From positions 1-24,802 of IMG/VR virus record IMGVR_UViG_3300044628_000858: DNA of 24,802 nt, one strand, 5' to 3'. The position numbers were made by a program, and so were the translations under genes. Below, one piece after another: positions 14,645 through 24,132 of this stretch; the first letter of the stretch is position 1; every line of letters starts with the position of its first letter. The DNA comes from a virus. Below the pieces are notes generated by a model. It was not told the DNA's origin. It saw nothing but the letters and a program-made list of their open reading frames with translations, and ran no database searches.

Positions 14645-16675
14645 CTAGTATAATTTAATCTCACAAGCATCAGTTGAGCAGTATTTTTCAGACTCAGCGT
14701 CTAGATTGTCTTTACCGTCATAGATTGCAGACCAATCAATCTTGCCAATTGTTCCAACATAAGAGTTATACTCTTCTTTTGAAATCTCTGTGTATGGTTG
14801 CTGAGGATAAGTCTTATTCCCCATTGGTAAAAATGATACTGCTTTTAGTTGACCCTCGTACATGTTTAGTGCTGGAGCCACAAACTGTTTTTCTGTTTCT
14901 TTGTCAAATGACAGAGTTACAGAAACACCATTGTCTGACCAGTACTTTTGAGCAGTTGCTGCAAGTCCAATCTTCTCAAACAAACTAACCTGCTTCTCAG
15001 CACGTTTGTGTCCAGATGCTACTGGGAAATATACTACGGATGTATTTGCTGATACAAGGTCGTCTTCAATTTTATATCCCGCTGCTTTAAATAAATGCAT
15101 CATTGGATCGGTATTGCCAAAACGAATAGCACGAAGATAAAATTCTCCACCAGGTCCCCAGTGAACTCCAGGAGTTGCGCCCGATAAAAGAGAAACAGAT
15201 CCTGAAGGCTTGACTGTAGTTACACGAACTGATTCACGAACACATAACCACTCAGAATACTTGTGGTCATAATGACGAATTTTTTGATACCCTTCATCCA
15301 TCCACTCACGCAATGCTGGAAGCCCAGAATTATCTGCAAAAGAAGCAATGCCAGTAAGGGATGTTCCAATACGACGATTACGTTGCATAATTCCATTTGT
15401 CTGTTGCCAATGCGTTGGCATTAAGGTTACAGTCTTTCCATAAAGATATGCAAACTTCAATGTCTTGAGGAAGTCCTCCTTAGAGTCATGACGGTTTAAG
15501 TGCACCTCTACAAGTGTACAAAGTTCGTATGATTCTAATGGCTGCTCCGCACAAGGATTGAATCCCATAATACGGGAATCCTTATAGTCTGGTGCATCTT
15601 TTAATCTACCATATTCTCTAGCAACATCTAACCAGATAAAACCTGGCTCTCCATTGTCTGCAATTAAATCTACATAATCTTCATATTTTGTTCCAACAGT
15701 TGCTGAAATAGAATTATTTGACATCCAAGCCCATCCTGGTTTTTTTGGATCGTAAGAGTTACGGTCTGGAAATACTTCTGGATTTTTAAGATTAATAAAA
15801 CCTTCATCTTCTGGTATTCCAAGTGCAAGAGTTGCAGAACGACGAACATTTCCTGATACTACACAAGTACCAATAAGATTAACAATATCAACAATAGCAC
15901 GGCTATCTAATAGTTCTCCAGCCCTAGAGCCAATTACATTACGAATACGTGTATGGAGATCAATAAGTGGTACTGGACCGCTTGCTACCCCTCCAAAGCC
16001 CTTAATGGGGGCTCCTAGAGGACGGATAAGGTCATAGGTAAACTCCTGAATAGGTTGATTTTGGCGAAGAAATGAGTTAATTAAAAGACGAACAGATTCA
16101 ACCCAGCCTTCACGAGTATCTGGGATTTCATAAATAGATGCTGGTTCGGTAGGGGCATAAATAGGCATTTGCTTGTCTTGTCCAAGGGTATCAAACCCAA
16201 CTCCAATACCCAGCATTAATGCATCCATTACCCAAGCAAATAAAGCACCAGGATCATTGCGATCAATGTCTCTTGTTGAAACCATTGCACAGTTTTGAAG
16301 GGAAGCAGAGTTGCGCTTTTCCATAGTCATGGGAGTTCCAAATGCCCATAGCCCACGACCTGGCGGTGTCCACTTTAGTTCAAACATTCTTTGGAATGCT
16401 TCTTGTGCAGACTTCTGTGCTTTGTTATCATTCCATGGTAAACGATTATCCTTAGCATGATTCTTTTGTACTGAATACATACCCTCAATTACACGACGAC
16501 AAACCTCATGCCAGCGTTCTTTTGTTCCGTCTTCTTTCATACGAGAATATGTACGAATAAATGTAATTTCTCCTAAAGAGTTAGACCCAGCATCTGAGAA
16601 TCCAAATGGTGCTGAAACATTATTATATTTATTTACAAAATCTTCTGATAGACGAAACGAAAAAACTTCTGACAT
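14645..16675 (-). CDS. nrdJ: Adenosylcobalamin-dependent (class II) ribonucleoside-triphosphate reductase, monomeric
   Basis: The protein has 676 residues. It reduces ribonucleoside triphosphates to deoxy forms with coenzyme B12 as radical source, feeding phage DNA synthesis, and works without oxygen. Key residues are all visible: Cys129 ('SASLQNCAMVST') and Cys386 ('SYELCTLVEV') as the active-site pair, 'NPCAEQPL' with Asn373, Cys375 (thiyl radical) and Glu377, and a C-terminal CX4C pair (Cys666, Cys671 in 'CSTDAC') for re-reduction. The 11-residue distance Cys375-Cys386 equals that of the Lactobacillus leichmannii enzyme (408/419), which has 739 residues, so this one is compact. It has its own promoter (16734-16763), AAAGGT before the ATG, and an upstream terminator. 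The thioredoxin at 17617-17892 is a plausible reductant. Confidence 0.95.
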   Translation of the reverse strand: MSEVFSFRLSEDFVNKYNNVSAPFGFSDAGSNSLGEITFIRTYSRMKEDGTKERWHEVCRRVIEGMYSVQKNHAKDNRLPWNDNKAQKSAQEAFQRMFELKWTPPGRGLWAFGTPMTMEKRNSASLQNCAMVSTRDIDRNDPGALFAWVMDALMLGIGVGFDTLGQDKQMPIYAPTEPASIYEIPDTREGWVESVRLLINSFLRQNQPIQEFTYDLIRPLGAPIKGFGGVASGPVPLIDLHTRIRNVIGSRAGELLDSRAIVDIVNLIGTCVVSGNVRRSATLALGIPEDEGFINLKNPEVFPDRNSYDPKKPGWAWMSNNSISATVGTKYEDYVDLIADNGEPGFIWLDVAREYGRLKDAPDYKDSRIMGFNPCAEQPLESYELCTLVEVHLNRHDSKEDFLKTLKFAYLYGKTVTLMPTHWQQTNGIMQRNRRIGTSLTGIASFADNSGLPALREWMDEGYQKIRHYDHKYSEWLCVRESVRVTTVKPSGSVSLLSGATPGVHWGPGGEFYLRAIRFGNTDPMMHLFKAAGYKIEDDLVSANTSVVYFPVASGHKRAEKQVSLFEKIGLAATAQKYWSDNGVSVTLSFDKETEKQFVAPALNMYEGQLKAVSFLPMGNKTYPQQPYTEISKEEYNSYVGTIGKIDWSAIYDGKDNLDAESEKYCSTDACEIKLY

Positions 16676-16878: not shown

Positions 16879-17349
16879 CTAGTTAATCTTAACCCATTCT
16901 TTTTGTGGCTCCACCCATGTGTAATTATCTCCATCTAGCGGATATGGTTTTGGAGGAATCCACTGCTCTGTAACTTCATCATATCCCCATGAGGGGTATA
17001 GTTTTTTCAACCACTGTTGATCTTTTTCTACCCAAGTATAATATATTCCGTCTTCGTGAGTATGATTATAAATATTTTCTGGATAAGGTACAGGAGGAAT
17101 ATAACCAGAGCCGTCTTCAGCTAAAATCCATGTTGGGTATGGCTTAACAGGAGATAAAGACCCATCTTCTTCATTATAAATAAACCCAACCTTAACATTT
17201 TTTTGATTATCTTTTAGTTGAATGATTATTGGATCACTAATTAATGCGTAATATGTGGTTTCATCAAGAATATCCATAACAGCAACTACTTTACCGTCAA
17301 TAACAATAGCTATGGAGTTTGTGCTTTGAATCTCTATATCAGTTTTCAT
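16879..17349 (-). CDS. Small protein with VIDGxVV domain and two PYPSW-type repeats
   Basis: The protein has 156 residues. Residues 12-66 form a short domain ('SIAIVIDGKVVAVMDILDE', 'ISDPIIIQL', 'VKVGFIYNEEDG') that recurs in the genes at 20250 and 20639. Residues 70-114 and 118-154 are two copies of a tryptophan/proline-rich repeat: 'PYPTWILAEDG..IPPVPYP...YTWVEKDQQW' and 'LYPSWGYDEVTEQWIPPKPYP..NYTWVEPQKEW'. Repeats of this style occur in small phage genes of unknown role near structural genes; a virion or fibre-assembly role is a guess. Its start overlaps the zinc-ribbon gene by 11 bases, with GAGGAG 7 bases before the ATG. A terminator follows. Confidence 0.8.
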   Translation of the reverse strand: MKTDIEIQSTNSIAIVIDGKVVAVMDILDETTYYALISDPIIIQLKDNQKNVKVGFIYNEEDGSLSPVKPYPTWILAEDGSGYIPPVPYPENIYNHTHEDGIYYTWVEKDQQWLKKLYPSWGYDEVTEQWIPPKPYPLDGDNYTWVEPQKEWVKIN

Positions 17350-17614
17350 TTAATTGCTCCTCTGTATATTCTTTTACTTTAATTTCTGGGATAAATGCAT
17401 CCCATTTCCCTAGTGGACATGTAGCATTTGGCAACTTTGTTTTTGCATTCATAATACAACCACACTCTTTACATTGATGTGTAAGCGCAACATATCTATC
17501 GCATTGCTTACATATATCTAGTCTTTCTTTTGCAATTATGTCTGTTACTCTTCCTATTTTTTTATTAAAAAGGTCCCATGGTCTTGCTGGTCTATCTGGA
17601 AAAATTTCGCTCAT
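17339..17614 (-). CDS. Small six-cysteine zinc-ribbon-like protein
   Basis: The 91-residue protein has cysteines at 35, 38, 48, 51, 53 and 66, arranged CX2C-X9-CX2CXC-X12-C in 'ERLDICKQCDRYVALTHQC', 'KECGCIMNAKTKLPNATCP' and LGKW. The pattern with C-terminal 'CPLGKW' is that of a small conserved family common in phages (I believe DUF6171-like); metal binding is likely, function unknown. It follows the thioredoxin gene by 2 bases with GAGGA before the ATG, and overlaps the next gene, so the three are co-translated. A redox link to thioredoxin or reductase is possible but only by neighbourhood. Confidence 0.8.
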   Translation of the reverse strand: MSEIFPDRPARPWDLFNKKIGRVTDIIAKERLDICKQCDRYVALTHQCKECGCIMNAKTKLPNATCPLGKWDAFIPEIKVKEYTEEQLNEN

Positions 17615-17616
17615 TG

Positions 17617-17892
17617 TTAATCCTCACTACATTCATGATTATAAAAATCTAAAAGTTCTTTTTTGCTTCTAGGGCTAGTCATTCTACAGTACTCTTTGTC
17701 ATTACTGACCATAATCATTGTTGGAACTGAAACAGCACGAAAAAATATTGCTTTTTCTTTATCGATATCTACATCAAAAACCTCTATTTCTATCTCAGGG
17801 TTTTCCTGCTTAAACTCGTAAAAATCTGGCTGCATTGATTGACAAAAGCTACACCAAGTTGCAAAAAAAGCAATCATTTTTTTATTATTCAT
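17617..17892 (-). CDS. Thioredoxin-like protein
   Basis: The 91-residue protein has the thioredoxin fold signature: 'IAFFATWCSFCQSMQPDF' with the redox pair Cys14-Cys17 (WCSFC), 'VFDVDIDKEKA', and the cis-proline Pro57 in 'AVSVPTMIMV'. It is slightly shorter than cellular thioredoxins (about 105) because the first strand is missing, which is common for phage ones. It likely passes electrons to the class II reductase encoded one unit downstream, whose C-terminal CX4C pair needs such a partner. The ATG lies 6 bases after an extended -10 box and has no Shine-Dalgarno site, so expression may be leaderless. Confidence 0.9.
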   Translation of the reverse strand: MNNKKMIAFFATWCSFCQSMQPDFYEFKQENPEIEIEVFDVDIDKEKAIFFRAVSVPTMIMVSNDKEYCRMTSPRSKKELLDFYNHECSED

Positions 17893-17910: not shown

Positions 17911-18672
17911 CTACTTTAAAGGATGTACCAATTTTTGATGGTCTGGGAATGGTAAATCGTTTGGAAAAATCCCATTATAGTATCTATTGGCTTCTTTTCC
18001 ATCAGACCTTTCTGCTTTTAGTTTATTTGAAGAAGCCCACTCTAGTTCCAGAGTAGACTCGTCTAATACGTCTAGTCCATCTATCAATTCAAAACTATCA
18101 ATAAAATACCTTTTCACTGGAATAAATGCTGCAAGGAGATCTCCTTTTTTTATTTTAATCTTGGTTAAGGGGCGGGTTACCTTTATGTTAAATGAAAACG
18201 ATGATCTAAGGTTGTCGGACTCTATAACACTTGTCATTGCTACAAGGCCATCTATAAAAGAATTGGGAGGCTGAATAGTCATTAAGTTAATTCCTGGAGA
18301 TGTTCTAATAATAAAACTATTTCTTACTGACAAAATTCCAGAGTTTAATGTATTATAGTAGTTTTGAATATCTAAATCTGTATTTTCTCTCTGCTTGTGA
18401 TTTGTTTCAATCATAACTTCTTTTTCTCCGCCTGGCCAAAAAAGTGTTAAATCAATATTAGATTTTACAGCAAAGCCCATTTGGTTTCCTATAACAAGAG
18501 GCAACACCTGATACATCTTTTCTGTAAACCAGTCTTTAGACTGATCTCCTCCAAGTGGTTGGACTATGTCATAAAAATTCCAATTATTTAAAAAGTGTTC
18601 TTTTTTGTTTTCTGGATAAAATAAAATCTGGTTTTCTTTAATTATATTTTCTTTTTCATTTATATAAGGCAT
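17911..18672 (-). CDS. DUF6065-like protein, divergent third tandem paralog
   Basis: This 253-residue protein contains 'VLPLVIGNQMGFAVKSNIDL', 'FWPGG', 'NSGILSVRNSFIIRTSPGIN', 'MTSVIESDN', 'FSFNIKVTRPLTKIKIKKGD' and 'AAFIPVKRYFI'. That order (LPL..N..G, GIL.., RT.PG.NL, V.E.D, F..N.K.TRP, KGD..A.F.P) is the pattern I recall for DUF6065, a family of unknown function. It aligns in its second half with the two genes upstream (RTSPGINLM against KTPKGYSIM; SVIESDN against GVVDTDA; IKKGDLLAAFIPVKR against IEKGTPVVQIIPFKR). It starts at a TAATG junction with GAGGAAGA before it. No signal peptide or membrane segment. Function not known. Confidence 0.75.
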   Translation of the reverse strand: MPYINEKENIIKENQILFYPENKKEHFLNNWNFYDIVQPLGGDQSKDWFTEKMYQVLPLVIGNQMGFAVKSNIDLTLFWPGGEKEVMIETNHKQRENTDLDIQNYYNTLNSGILSVRNSFIIRTSPGINLMTIQPPNSFIDGLVAMTSVIESDNLRSSFSFNIKVTRPLTKIKIKKGDLLAAFIPVKRYFIDSFELIDGLDVLDESTLELEWASSNKLKAERSDGKEANRYYNGIFPNDLPFPDHQKLVHPLK

Positions 18673-19445
18673 TATTCTTCCTCTAGTTCTTTTTTATTAT
18701 TTTTTTCAGAAAGATATTTTTTTTTGACCCAAAAATTACTTCTATAGTATCCGTAATTAACTGACCTTAAAGCGTCTGCCATCTTTTTCCAACTGTTTGG
18801 TAAGATATGAAATGAGGCCATCCAAGTCTCTCTTTTTATTGGAATCATCTGGATAATAGGTGTTCCTTCTTCTATAACTCCAAGCCAGCCTTCTTTTATA
18901 AAAAATGGATAAAATCCGCTTAGTGGAAAATTATCACCATCTACAATTGCACTAGTGGTTACAAATGGGAGTTCCCATCTATTAAGTGGGTGGGTTACAA
19001 GCATACTCCATCCTCTTGGTAGATCATAACCCCACATTCCTCCCCAGGCTAGGTGATTCCAAGAACAGCCAGGTGGCCTAGGAATTGTATGTCCTAAGTT
19101 AATCGGTCTTTCAGTAATCAAATCTCTAGTGACTGGAGAATAATCCTGAACCCATTCTCCTTGTTCATTTTTTCTAACTTTTCTATATTCAACTACGTTA
19201 GAATCATTTCTTGTTATCTCTATGTCATAAGTTGCTAAAATTAAATATCCAGAGGTAATGGCATCTAAAAACGGAACACAGGACTTCATTCCGCCAGCTC
19301 TATCTTCTTTACCTAAAACATTAATTCCATCATCTTCTTTGCTTATAAAGTTTTCTCCTTTTTTCCACCAATCTGGGATCATTTTTTGTGCAGGTATTGG
19401 AAAAACGTCTACTGGCATTTCGCTATAAAATTTAACTTTTTTCAT
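18672..19445 (-). CDS. DUF6065-like protein, second tandem paralog
   Basis: The protein has 257 residues: 'FPIPAQKMIPDWWKKGENF', 'KSCVPFLDAITSGYLILATY', 'GWSMLVTHPLNRWELPFVTT', 'AIVDGDNFPLSGFYPFFIKE', 'WLGVIEEGTPIIQMIPIKRE' and TW. It is clearly a paralog of the gene at 19463 (CVPFLDAITSGY against CIPVLDAITTGY; GVIEEGTPIIQMIPIKRETW against GVIEKGTPVVQIIPFKREDW). The alternating hydrophobic pattern suggests a beta-sandwich. Related proteins occur in several aquatic phage groups, all without assigned function as far as I know. It has AGGGGGT 4 bases before the ATG. The C-terminus is Lys/Glu-rich. Confidence 0.78.
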   Translation of the reverse strand: MKKVKFYSEMPVDVFPIPAQKMIPDWWKKGENFISKEDDGINVLGKEDRAGGMKSCVPFLDAITSGYLILATYDIEITRNDSNVVEYRKVRKNEQGEWVQDYSPVTRDLITERPINLGHTIPRPPGCSWNHLAWGGMWGYDLPRGWSMLVTHPLNRWELPFVTTSAIVDGDNFPLSGFYPFFIKEGWLGVIEEGTPIIQMIPIKRETWMASFHILPNSWKKMADALRSVNYGYYRSNFWVKKKYLSEKNNKKELEEE

Positions 19446-19462
19446 TTTTACCCCCTATTAAC

Positions 19463-20242
19463 CTATAGATATTTCTTGTTTTTTCTATAATCTCTTTTAT
19501 AAGCTCCGCCGACTAGTTTTCCTTCAAGATTAAACCTTCTAGACATATATTCATGACCTAAAGATTTTAACTCTTTAGAACTCTTATCGCTTATCTTATC
19601 ATAAATCCTTTTTTTCCAATCTTCTCTTTTAAAAGGTATTATTTGAACAACAGGTGTTCCCTTTTCTATAACTCCCTCAAAAGTATTTTTCATCATAAAT
19701 GGGAATAAAACTACCAAGGGGTAAGCATCAGTATCTACAACTCCAGTTAAAGTATAAAATGGAAGATATGGAGAATTAATTGGATGGGTAAACATTATAG
19801 AATACCCTTTTGGTGTTTTAATTAGCACATCGCTTGACCATTTAAACGCATAATTTATAAATTCTGGAGATATTGGCATTTCCTGTAATTGAGCAGTTGG
19901 GTGCATTGAAATGGCTTTCTCTCCAGTAGGTCCCGCCATTCTTTCTCCAGAAAATTCAATCAAATTGGTTTTTTCGTCATACTTAAAATGATAGTCTGAT
20001 TTTGTAACTAAAACATATCCTGTTGTTATTGCATCTAGAACAGGTATACACTTTTTTATAGTTAGTTCTGGTTGATTCTGAATCTCAAAAAATGAAGACA
20101 TTTTTTTATACCATTCTGGTATAAGATCCATAGCTCTTTTCACTTCTAAAAAAGAGTCTTCTGTTGTATAAACAAATTCAATTATTCCTTCTTTAGAAGG
20201 AGAGTTTACGTCTTTTTTCCATTTGATTATTTTTTCTAACAT
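19463..20242 (-). CDS. DUF6065-like protein, first tandem paralog
   Basis: From the ATG at 20242 the protein has 259 residues; a TTG at 20248 could add two. It contains 'AMDLIPEWYKKMSSFFEIQ', 'KKCIPVLDAITTGYVLVTKS', 'KTPKGYSIMFTHPINSPYLP', 'TGVVDTDAYPLVVLFPFMMK' and 'EGVIEKGTPVVQIIPFKRED'. Compared with the next gene it lacks the tryptophan-rich middle ('CSWNHLAWGGMWGYDLPRGW'). The C-terminus is strongly basic (AYKRDYRKNKKYL). The start is 7-8 bases after the upstream stop and has a poor ribosome site, so translation is probably coupled. The role is unknown; placement after fibre genes makes a virion or host-surface function conceivable. Confidence 0.75.
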   Translation of the reverse strand: MLEKIIKWKKDVNSPSKEGIIEFVYTTEDSFLEVKRAMDLIPEWYKKMSSFFEIQNQPELTIKKCIPVLDAITTGYVLVTKSDYHFKYDEKTNLIEFSGERMAGPTGEKAISMHPTAQLQEMPISPEFINYAFKWSSDVLIKTPKGYSIMFTHPINSPYLPFYTLTGVVDTDAYPLVVLFPFMMKNTFEGVIEKGTPVVQIIPFKREDWKKRIYDKISDKSSKELKSLGHEYMSRRFNLEGKLVGGAYKRDYRKNKKYL

Positions 20243-20249
20243 AATCAAA

Positions 20250-20917: not shown

Positions 20918-21991
20918 CTACTCTACTTTAAATTCTGATATTACAGTTGTTTGTGCTGCAGCATGTGTTACTGGGGCTGCAATGATTCCATGCTTTTTTG
21001 TTTTTGTCGCTTGTCCAGAAATATTTGTAGTACGGTTTGCTCCGATTTGTGATGTGTACCCCGTTGAAGAGAATCCCTGTACTGTTACAACATCTCCAGA
21101 AAGAATAGTTTTAAAGCTTGCAACGGCAGCATTAAAAGCATGGTTGGCGACATTTGTAATTGTTCCTGAAACAGACTTAATCAAGCTAACTGATTGATTT
21201 GTAACGCAGTCACAGTCATAGTTTGTTGCTGTGTTATATGTTGCACAGTTTGTTGTTGAATTAAATGTTGAAGGATAGTATGTGTTGTAGGCTGCACAAT
21301 TTGTTGAAGATGATGCACAGTTGCCTCCAGATGCGTTAGAGCCTTGTTCTGTGTTACAGCAGCATCTTACTGGGAAGTTATAACCTCCAACATAGCTACA
21401 GTTTATGTAGCCACAGCTATGGCCCGAAGGATTGTTGTAACAAGTGTTTTCTGCACATGCTCCACAGCCACCACCGAAGGATCCAGGGCAAGAGTTTTGT
21501 GTCCAAAAATTATCACAAGACTGGTAGAAGAAAGTGTTTCCAGGATTATATGCATTATATGAATTACATGTTGTTGTAAAGTTTGCACAGTTTCCACCTG
21601 AAGCTGGAGTAAATGTGAAGTTTGTTACAAAGGTTGCACAGTTTACAGTATTTGTACATGTCTGACAAACCTGATTAGCTTGAACATATGTAGCCCACCA
21701 GTTATTTGAGTCTGTTACCCAAAATGCTGTTCCAACTCCTGGTCCAGTACCAGAAGCTGAAAGCGTAACATCTTCTTTTGAGAATGTTAATGTTGATAGT
21801 GGATAACCTGAAGCTGCAGAGGAAGATCCTTTATTTGTAGCAATTCCCCATGATCCTCTTACTGAGTTCCATAAAGCAGAAGTATTATTCGCTGCCCCTA
21901 AGCCAGCATTATCTGCTCTCGTAAAATTTTCTGTTACTGAGAGTAGTGCTTTTAGTCTAGAGGATACGCTTGCTCTTCTAAATTTTTTCAT
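20918..21991 (-). CDS. Cysteine-rich virion protein: jelly-roll-like domain with 20-Cys insertion
   Basis: From the ATG at 21991, which shares a TAATG junction with the fibre stop, the protein has 357 residues; an ATG at 22021 is in frame but overlaps more. Residues 16-108 ('ENFTRADNAGLGAANNTSAL', 'RGSWGIATNKG', 'AFWVTDSNNWWATYV') and 266-357 ('SLIKSVSGTITNVANHAF', 'ILSGDVVTVQGFSSTGY', 'KTKKHGIIAA', 'ISEFKV') read as two halves of one concanavalin-like (LamG/glucanase-type) sandwich. Between them, residues 109-262 carry 20 cysteines, and none occur elsewhere in the protein. The insert is Asn/Thr/Tyr/Gly-rich and lacks lysine, with a doubled 'GGNCA...T.C..YN.Y.P..TF' unit. A disulfide- or metal-stabilised surface loop of a receptor-binding protein is the likely reading. 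Confidence 0.78.
   Translation of the reverse strand: MKKFRRASVSSRLKALLSVTENFTRADNAGLGAANNTSALWNSVRGSWGIATNKGSSSAASGYPLSTLTFSKEDVTLSASGTGPGVGTAFWVTDSNNWWATYVQANQVCQTCTNTVNCATFVTNFTFTPASGGNCANFTTTCNSYNAYNPGNTFFYQSCDNFWTQNSCPGSFGGGCGACAENTCYNNPSGHSCGYINCSYVGGYNFPVRCCCNTEQGSNASGGNCASSSTNCAAYNTYYPSTFNSTTNCATYNTATNYDCDCVTNQSVSLIKSVSGTITNVANHAFNAAVASFKTILSGDVVTVQGFSSTGYTSQIGANRTTNISGQATKTKKHGIIAAPVTHAAAQTTVISEFKVE
21206..21667 (-). other. Cysteine-rich insertion (20 Cys in 154 codons)
   Basis: This encodes the insertion in the 20918-21991 protein. It includes CQTC, GCGAC, CCC and CDC clusters. At DNA level, GCACAGTT-like words recur with the NCA codons, so the segment probably grew by internal duplication. 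Confidence 0.8.
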
Positions 21992-24132
21992 TAGGCTGCT
22001 GTGTCTCCTACCAATAACCATTCATTGGCAGCGATTTTGATCAGTGTCATTGTACTGTATCTAACTCTGCTCTTTAATTGTGAATCTGTTGACCGAATTG
22101 TAACTCCGCCAGCTGCTGCAACTGTAAGCTGACCAGCACCGTACTGAAAAAGATCAGTAAAGGTTCCAACTGCCCAGTTAGCACCATCACCGCTGTCGGC
22201 AGGAACTGTTACTGTAACTGCTGATGAAGATGTAAATTTAATTGTATTTGTTACGTCTGTAGCATAAGATAGAGTTCTGGTTGTTCCAGATACCTCCACA
22301 AATGCGTATAAACTATTTTCTTTAGCATTTAGTTGTGTTTGGATTGCTGAAGTTACACCATCTACGTAGTTTAATTCAGTTGCAGTTGCTGTAAGCGCAA
22401 CATCCTCATTAATCTTTGGAGATGTAAGTGTCTTATTTGTAAGAGTTTCAGTAGCATCCTTTAATAGTGTGCCATTTAAATATAGTGACTTTCCTGAAGC
22501 AAGGTTTACGTGCTCTGATGAGGTCCATGCGTCTGTAGCATCTACCCAGTTAAATGTCTTATCTGATGCGCCCTTTAATGTAATACCGCCACCATCAGCA
22601 GTTGTATCTGTTGGGGTTTCTACATCTCCAAGAACTATATTCTTATCATCTACTGCAAGAGTAGTTGAATTAATTGTTGTAGTTGTACCATTAATAGTTA
22701 GGTCCCCTGAAAGAACCAAAGATGTTCCAGTTGCTGCACCAATATTTGGTGTTACAAGTGTTGGTGTATTAGCAAAGACAAGTGCTCCAGTGCCAGTTTC
22801 ATCTGTAACTGCTGATATAAGGTTTGCAGATGACGGAGTTGCAAGGAATGTTGCTACTCCTGTTCCAAGTCCATCTACTCCAGTTGCTATTGGTAATCCT
22901 GTTGCATTTGTAAGAATACCAGAAGCAGGTGTACCAAGTGCTGGTGTAGTCATTGTTGGTGAAGTTAAAGTTTTATTTGTTAAAGTTTCTGTTCCTGCAA
23001 GTGTAGCAAAGTCTGCATCAGTAACCGCTGTGTTAAATTGTGCGAGTGTTCCTGATACTGTATTTGAGCCAAGAGCAATTGTTTTATTTGTAAGCGTTTC
23101 AGTACCTGCAAGAGAGGCTACGTCGGCATCAGATACTGCAGTATTTAGTTGAGCAAGAGTTGAAGTAACTGTATTTGAACCAAGTGAGATTGATTTATTT
23201 GTAACTGTTTTGGTGTTAGCGTCTGTCAAAAGTGTTGATGTATCTGTAATTCCATGAACAGATGTTGAATCACTGTTGTGTGTTGATACTGCTGAATCTG
23301 CATAAGACTGGGCAGTTGAAAGTGTTGATGAAGCCTGTGATGAAACATCTGACAAAAATGCAACGTTTGCAGTTAACTGTGCGCTAGGAAGCTTGGTATT
23401 GTTATCTAAAGATGCAACTGAAACTCCTATTGCTGAAGTTAAAACACTATTGTTGAGCTGTGTTTGAATAGCAGAAGTGACTCCATTTAGGTATCCAATT
23501 TCTGTATCAGATACATCTGTAACTCTAAGTTGAACTGTTCCAGTTGCATCAGGAAAAGTAATAGTTCTATCTGCTGTAGGATCTGTTACTGTTAAAGTAG
23601 TTTCATGAGCATCTGCTGTTGTACCTTCAAAAACAATTCCTGTTGTAGCATTAATTGTTGTACTGTTAATGGTAGTAGTTGTACCACTTACTGTTAAGTC
23701 TCCTGAAACTGTAACGTTTCCACTACCGTCGGCCAAAACAACTGTACCTGATGCGTCAGGGAATGTTATAGTGCGGTCAGCGGTTGGGTCTGTAACTGTT
23801 AAAGTTGTTTCATTTGCGTTATCTGTTGCACCTTCTATGTGGATAGATGTTCCAGGAACAATCAAATTCTTGCTTGAATCAAGTCCTGCTACACCAGAGA
23901 TTGCTCCGACATCTGAATCCTGAAGATATGCTCCAAGAGATGATGCGATAACATCTGTGGCATCTACGAAATAGGTAAGGTCTGCCCAGTAAGATACGCC
24001 ATCACCGATTTTAAATTTATTTGTGTCCGACTCCCAGCCGATTTCTCCAGCATTTAGGATTGGACCATCTCCGTCGTTAGAGGATGTCCACTGTGATGCG
24101 GTACCTCTACGCTGTTGCATTCTTGTTGCCAT
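21991..24132 (-). CDS. Tail fibre-like protein with Mtd-type N-terminal domain
   Basis: The protein has 713 residues. Residues 1-52 ('[20 protein letters not shown]', '[20 protein letters not shown]') match the N-terminal domain of the phage major tropism determinant, which anchors trimeric fibres. The rest is Ser/Thr/Ala/Asn-rich and repetitive: '[20 protein letters not shown]' twice, '[11 protein letters not shown]' and '[12 protein letters not shown]', '[11 protein letters not shown]' twice, '[11 protein letters not shown]' twice. This is typical of long fibres built of stacked strands. The C-terminus ('[20 protein letters not shown]', VGDTAA) resembles many phage fibre ends. GGAGGAG precedes the ATG and an extended -10 box lies 29 bases upstream. 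No reverse transcriptase is in the window, so diversification as in Bordetella phage is not shown. Confidence 0.87.

Follow-up and report, generated by a model that had tools for sequence, protein, structure and literature searches.

The window analysed here (24,802 nucleotides, an entire IMG/VR record of 24.8 kb) encodes a 357-residue protein in which all cysteines lie in one block that, in the models described below, interrupts a concanavalin-like sandwich domain. Across a family of at least 59 relatives, the spacings between the cysteines of the block tend to be nearly identical when read from either end. The protein is proposed, with a probability of about 0.7, to be a tail-fibre-associated adhesin in which the sandwich serves as carrier and the block forms an antiparallel hairpin with cross-arm disulfides and a tip or knob, acting as a receptor-binding arm. 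It also seems fairly probable that the architecture is an undescribed one: a hairpin, at most about 480 residues long and joined by up to 23 cross-arm disulfides, whose arms evolve in register and which uncultured actinophages carry within a tail lectin domain as an adjustable arm for receptor binding.

Gene, carrier domain and cysteine block

The start of the cysteine-rich gene is likelier to be the ATG at 21991 (357 aa) than that at 22021, because the former lies in a TAATG overlap with the stop codon of the upstream fibre gene; residues are numbered accordingly. A start/stop overlap (gap −1) upstream of the gene was seen at 11 of 20 loci, and an upstream open reading frame adjoined or overlapped it at 19 of 20. 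The upstream neighbour carried an Mtd_N domain in 8/8 relatives tested, as it does in the window. The gene thus belongs to a tail-fibre module, and its place directly after a fibre gene with Mtd_N, in many cases with overlap, fits a tail adhesin. The window fibre is a 713-aa protein (21991-24132, minus strand) with an N-terminal Mtd_N domain and repeated TETLTNKT-like units; its C-terminus (...WLLVGDTAA) was seen again in fibre genes located 5' of the cysteine-rich gene in many relatives. Features of the region are listed below; arm, rung, root and knob refer to the proposed hairpin.

21991..24132, minus strand: upstream tail-fibre gene with Mtd_N domain (Pfam E 7e-9), overlapping the start of the cysteine-rich gene
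20918-22021, minus strand: open reading frame of the cysteine-rich gene, 367 aa
20918..21991, minus strand: cysteine-rich tail protein, 357 aa (alternative start at 22021, giving 367 aa)
21680..21991, minus strand: N-terminal half of the predicted concanavalin-like carrier, residues 1-104, ending ...FWVTDSNNWWATYVQ; conserved flank that the L082 model folds together with the C-terminal half (hhalign E 1e-25)
21206..21667, minus strand: inserted 20-cysteine block (outbound arm, tip/knob, inbound arm), residues 109-262
21656..21667, minus strand: root of the outbound arm, C109-Q-T-C112; CxTC...CNC root motif of nearly the whole subfamily
21518..21655, minus strand: outbound rungs 2-5, residues 113-158; spacings 6, 17, 7, 17 mirror the inbound 11, 17, 7, 13
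21356..21517, minus strand: cysteine-dense tip knob, residues 159-212 (C159...C212); spacings unmirrored (9/1, 8/1, 3/12)
21215..21355, minus strand: inbound rungs 5-2, residues 213-259, of the mirror array
21206..21214, minus strand: root of the inbound arm, C260-D-C262, facing C109/C112 in the mirror array
20921..21205, minus strand: C-terminal half of the predicted carrier, residues 263-357, VTNQSVSLIKSVSGTIT... (L082 model and hhalign)

All 20 cysteines were located within residues 109-262 (119-272 in the 367-residue numbering), exactly the 154-residue block at 21206-21667 given in the original prediction; the probability that 20 randomly placed cysteines would all land in one given block of this size is 1.3e-8. 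The lack of lysine reported earlier was likewise found (Lys 0, Arg 1 and His 1 in 154 residues, with N, T, C, S and G most frequent), and the doubled GGNCA unit lies at residues 132-136 and 222-226.

The flanks of the block had been taken for two halves of a single jelly-roll, and both modelling and profile comparison bore this out. In the AlphaFold2 model of the relative L082 (61 rows), both flanks were folded as one domain with pLDDT 91-97 over most of their length, and the block (pLDDT 30-50) left and re-entered the sandwich between neighbouring strands, strands 105-109 and 244-247 lying at the root of the block. When the window-type flanks were joined into one profile, this was colinear with the two L082 halves on either side of the L082 block (hhalign 99.7%, E 1e-25). 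An insertion-free CBM66 domain (165 aa) could be aligned over both halves of L082 (149 residues, 2.5 Å), which indicates that the flanks form one domain. The AlphaFold2 model of the window protein itself (12 rows) was poor (mean pLDDT 39, block unfolded), and almost every structural match of this low-confidence model fell into the same fold class (Z of at most 7.5); the block was left unfolded in both the window and the L082 model (pLDDT ~20-50). Modelling therefore supports the cysteine block being an insertion into a concanavalin-like sandwich, and for the window protein the fold is claimed by homology to L082.

When the L082 model was compared with ConA-like chains by VIA-align, Z scores of 12.5-17.6 were obtained. 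The top match was the central fibre protein gp20 of mycobacteriophage Douge (Z 17.6, 3.0 Å, 173 residues, ~15% identity), followed by CBM66 (Z 16.3-16.4), the Douge baseplate chain 8zdo_a (Z 16.0) and the receptor-binding domain of TM4 gp23 (Z 15.4, 9% identity), below which came GH43 modules and legume lectins. The Douge gp20 CTD and baseplate CBM (PDB 8ZDP, 8ZDO) have the same concanavalin/CBM-like sandwich in an actinobacteriophage tail; the gp20 domain is part of the fibre and has no described cysteine array, whereas the cysteine-rich carrier is a separate small protein. The C-terminal domain of TM4 GP23 (PDB 9N6A), an actinophage receptor-binding protein, has this sandwich as well, with 175 aligned residues over 248-451 and no comparable block apparent from the alignment. 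CBM66 of Bacillus subtilis (PDB 4AZZ) is an insertion-free single domain and belongs to a cellular enzyme. The receptor-type domain predicted earlier thus agrees with the fold (Douge central fibre, TM4 gp23) and with the gene order. The carrier has the two-sheet jelly-roll of the ConA-like/CBM sandwiches in actinophage tail fibres; searches of Pfam, PHROGs and NCBIfam returned no convincing family match for the cysteine-rich protein (a PHROG match was obtained only at the N-terminus of L116), and the claim concerns the fold, without assignment to any named, sequence-curated family.

Mirror-symmetric spacing and paired change in the family

An initial set of 12 distinct members, obtained by scanning IMG/VR with the two flanks, was later widened to 136 relatives, and the 80 best loci were retained. 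From these viral metagenomic contigs 60 distinct full-length proteins were read, and statistics were calculated on 59 of them, L115 being omitted because its ORF start is uncertain. A cysteine block was present at the corresponding site in 60/60 proteins, and cysteines outside the block were absent from 59/60. Block size varied within this one family between 46 and 476 aa, counted from the first cysteine through the last, and cysteine number between 4 and 46, in keeping with the hot spot for variation that had been anticipated. The supposed rarity of such cysteine-rich loops in phage proteins needs qualifying, as at least 59 further full-length members share the arrangement. No convincing relative was detected by tblastn among 50,697 phage records (several family members or flanks as queries), none was found in the bacterial genomes of 84,980 species, a sequence search of the PDB gave no match, and no such phage protein was found in open PMC papers.

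The cysteine total was even in all 60 proteins and in all 26 clusters (<40% block identity). The most informative feature of the block, absent from the original prediction, is the mirror symmetry of its cysteine spacings. Symmetry was scored as a simple ungapped mirror sum, and p-values were obtained by shuffling the spacings; p<0.05 was reached in 20/26 clusters (Fisher combined p ~1e-30). Facing spacings were correlated with rho 0.71 at the true centre, compared with 0.16-0.45 when the centre was shifted by 1-4, and in a smaller representative set mirrored arms gave rho 0.64 as against 0.21 for arms in parallel order. In L037 the spacings are 3,5,7,5,5,5,6,5,5,8,8, then a central 10, then 8,8,5,5,6,5,5,5,7,10,2; in L012 they are 17,17,17,14,18,18,9,12,... 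on one arm and 16,16,16,14,19,19,10,11,... on the other; and in L108 2,6,8,10,10,10,10,10,8,8,5 faces 3,10,10,12,10,10,10,10,8,8,5. The most regular arrays are those of L037 and L071. The window protein alone gave a modest p of ~0.04: its outer rungs are mirrored (3/2, 6/11, 17/17, 7/7, 17/13) and its inner knob, which includes part of the CCC run C210-C211-C212, is unmirrored, so that pairing within the knob is unassignable by symmetry. Four subfamilies with few or evenly spaced cysteines (L065, L072, L093, L111) missed p<0.05, and L075 and L114 likewise fell short of it. Facing arms are often unequal (6/11 near the root; 13/12). Rungs 13-18 of L014 alternate between 7/4 and 4/7 residues, as if the sum per rung rather than the equality of the arms were kept, which hints at geometry. 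As a control, other clusters of at least 10 cysteines in the same loci, mostly in spurious frames, were scored, and none reached mirror p<0.05 among the matches listed. A DNA palindrome was rejected as the source of the mirror: inverted repeats of at least 12 nt were absent from the blocks of the window, L014 and L037, and one trivial repeat was present in L108.

Cysteines were also lost and gained in facing pairs. L008 and L058 are without both partners of the window pair 118/249 (6+17=23 and 11+17=28), and both partners of a pair are likewise gone in L014 relative to L009 (6+13=19 and 11+12=23); L102 has one extra cysteine per arm, and the two are level with each other. The facing segments of a rung, outbound and inbound, co-vary in two subfamilies (Fisher p 1.6e-4 and 2.7e-7, values that are indicative, the sequence pairs being related and non-independent). 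Between L091 and L095 rungs 6 and 7 are swapped from arm to arm, with GSPSYP facing GAYYYA and SSPSYP facing SGGYYYA in the former, and GQYYYA facing GSPSYP and GGYYYA facing SSPSYP in the latter. The even counts of 26/26 clusters, the mirror order and the paired loss and variation are as expected of a ladder whose cysteines pair across a hairpin.

A knob motif, GNAAPAxSCGLTxAQAxxCGGCK, is nearly identical in L014:3480-5297 and L004:5031-6176, where it sits at the tip of completely different arms; the sequences suggest that knob and stalk may be exchanged as modules.

A proposed disulfide-laced arm and its alternatives

In the proposed adhesin, a long Asn/Thr/Ser/Gly/Tyr/Cys-rich insertion would break into the concanavalin/CBM-like carrier at a single hairpin turn, head outward, turn at a tip or knob and return. 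Every outbound cysteine would stand opposite an inbound one and each facing pair would form a disulfide, so that the ladder could number up to 23 rungs; the outer pairs predicted for the window are 109-262, 112-260, 118-249, 135-232 and 142-225, followed by the cysteine-dense knob (159-212). The cytoplasm in which phages assemble is normally reducing, which counts against a disulfide ladder; oxidation would have to wait until lysis had released the protein into oxic water. The oxidised arm would be stiff and protease-resistant and would offer its tip to glycans or proteins on the host surface. In the course of evolution middle rungs would be exchanged, mostly as matching pairs, altering the length and surface of the arm and keeping its register; a rung would be added, lost or swapped on both arms at once, and the complementarity of facing segments would amount to a kind of pairing code.

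The block had been predicted to be a disulfide- or metal-bound loop. Of the two, disulfides are the better reading of the sequence. A hairpin held by metal clusters, with the cysteines binding Zn or Fe-S, is highly improbable: the CxxC...CxC root resembles a metal knuckle and the protein is synthesised in a reducing cytoplasm, but histidine is scarce in the window block (1/154), most rungs have two cysteines only and the next rung is 5-28 residues off, which leaves a tetrathiolate site unfillable, and the cysteine totals (6, 10, 14, 18, 22, 26, 30, 34, 46) are even without being multiples of four. These totals, together with two thiols at most rungs, make metal sites unlikely as a general rule.

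It is distinctly unlikely that the block is a string of small independent cysteine-rich knots with within-arm disulfides, its mirror order stemming from repeats on either side of the tip. L009, L012 and L014 plainly contain tandem repeats and an even cysteine count is compatible with any pairing; within-arm pairing, however, predicts neither equal spacings in reversed order nor that a cysteine's mirror partner on the opposite arm would be lost with it, the arm segments of L014 and L037 match in length yet differ in sequence, and inverted DNA repeats fail to explain the mirror. Neutral low-complexity drift, in which repeat slippage would have produced a disordered Asn/Thr/Ser/Cys loop with no defined structure, is scarcely credible: it would suit the composition, the tandem repeats and the disorder in the AlphaFold2 models, but not the even counts (60/60), the mirror order or the invariance of 20/20 cysteines between the window and its close homologues L001 (94%) and L002 (85%), in which other block residues vary.

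The block might instead crosslink neighbouring chains of a fibre trimer or coat the virion. Host binding is a prediction from the fold, and a gene directly behind the fibre gene could encode a cap or a chaperone-like partner; this role is nevertheless unlikely, since actinophage central fibres bind glycans through the fold that the carrier has (PMC13033339) and since root and tip are conserved and middle rungs variable in the two subfamilies with co-varying segments, as expected of a stalk for presenting a tip. In Douge, both CFP-tip-CTD and BppU-CBM bind to cells of M. smegmatis and to fragments of LAM/AM and alpha-glucan (PMC13033339).

Parts of the proposed arm have counterparts elsewhere. 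DGR-diversified tail proteins (Mtd) likewise carry a hypervariable region in a phage adhesion protein, and the neighbouring fibre here has an Mtd_N domain; diversification in Mtd is by A-to-N substitution, whereas length and rung content vary in the cysteine-rich family. DGR hypervariation was set aside as the source, RVT_1 reverse transcriptase having not been found in the records of 11 relatives, which are possibly fragments. In theta-defensins, antiparallel strands are joined by successive cross-strand disulfides in a cystine ladder. These are short cyclic peptides with three rungs, in contrast to the up to 23 proposed rungs, mostly 5-28 residues apart, of the phage block. The term 'disulfide ladder' is already in use (PMC13408038). 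The bovine ultralong CDR H3 is similarly a hypervariable cysteine-rich knob on a stalk that emerges from a beta-sandwich hairpin (PMC5994613); it differs in being non-homologous, in its length of up to ~70 residues, in its somatic diversification and in a stalk for which no disulfide ladder is described.

As an actinophage tail lectin fold the carrier is ordinary; the mirror-symmetric cysteine array is undescribed in the open PMC literature searched. If the proposed arm exists, it would represent a new route to a long rigid arm built from low-complexity sequence, and protein pairing would be readable from sequence by mirror symmetry, much like an RNA stem. It would bear on host recognition by phages of abundant uncultured actinobacteria and on the use of tens of disulfides by a virus made in a reducing cytoplasm, and the family would constitute a large, testable library of natural scaffolds that are putatively disulfide-laced.

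Host group and neighbouring genes

The phage probably infects actinobacteria. NrdJ of the window is ~60% identical to that of Mycobacterium and Actinomycetia phages and its portal 44-47% to that of Streptomyces phages, and the two similarities point to an actinophage. WhiB, an actinobacterial marker by which membership among the actinobacteriophages was judged, was present in 13/28 relatives' records and absent from the window record; in a control of 14 genomes it was found in Corynebacterium only. The lake actinophage DSL-LC01, which shares NrdJ, has no such cysteine array.

One further feature of the window concerns the redox state of the cysteine-rich protein:

17617..17892, minus strand: thioredoxin (WCSFC; Pfam E 2.6e-13), a putative redox partner of the cysteine-rich protein

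Thioredoxin was found in just 5/29 records tested, an occurrence by which a role as obligate oxidant or fixed partner was ruled out; the enzyme at 17617-17892 may serve NrdJ instead. The adjoining gene (17339-17614, minus strand) encodes a small CxxC-type protein whose match to DUF6171 was barely below threshold. A B12-dependent (class II) ribonucleotide reductase is encoded among the structural genes (14645-16675, minus strand), with ~60% identity to those of Mycobacterium phage Gaia and DSL-LC01. Directly downstream of the adhesin region, three consecutive genes (17911-20248, minus strand; 253-261 aa) form a paralogue cluster: two match DUF6065 (E 4e-26 and 4e-9), and the one between them looks similar by eye. 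L001 and L002 have the whole cluster and L004 part of it. A 156-aa protein with YPxW...WIPPKPYP-like repeat units (16879-17349, minus strand) is also present in L001 and L002.
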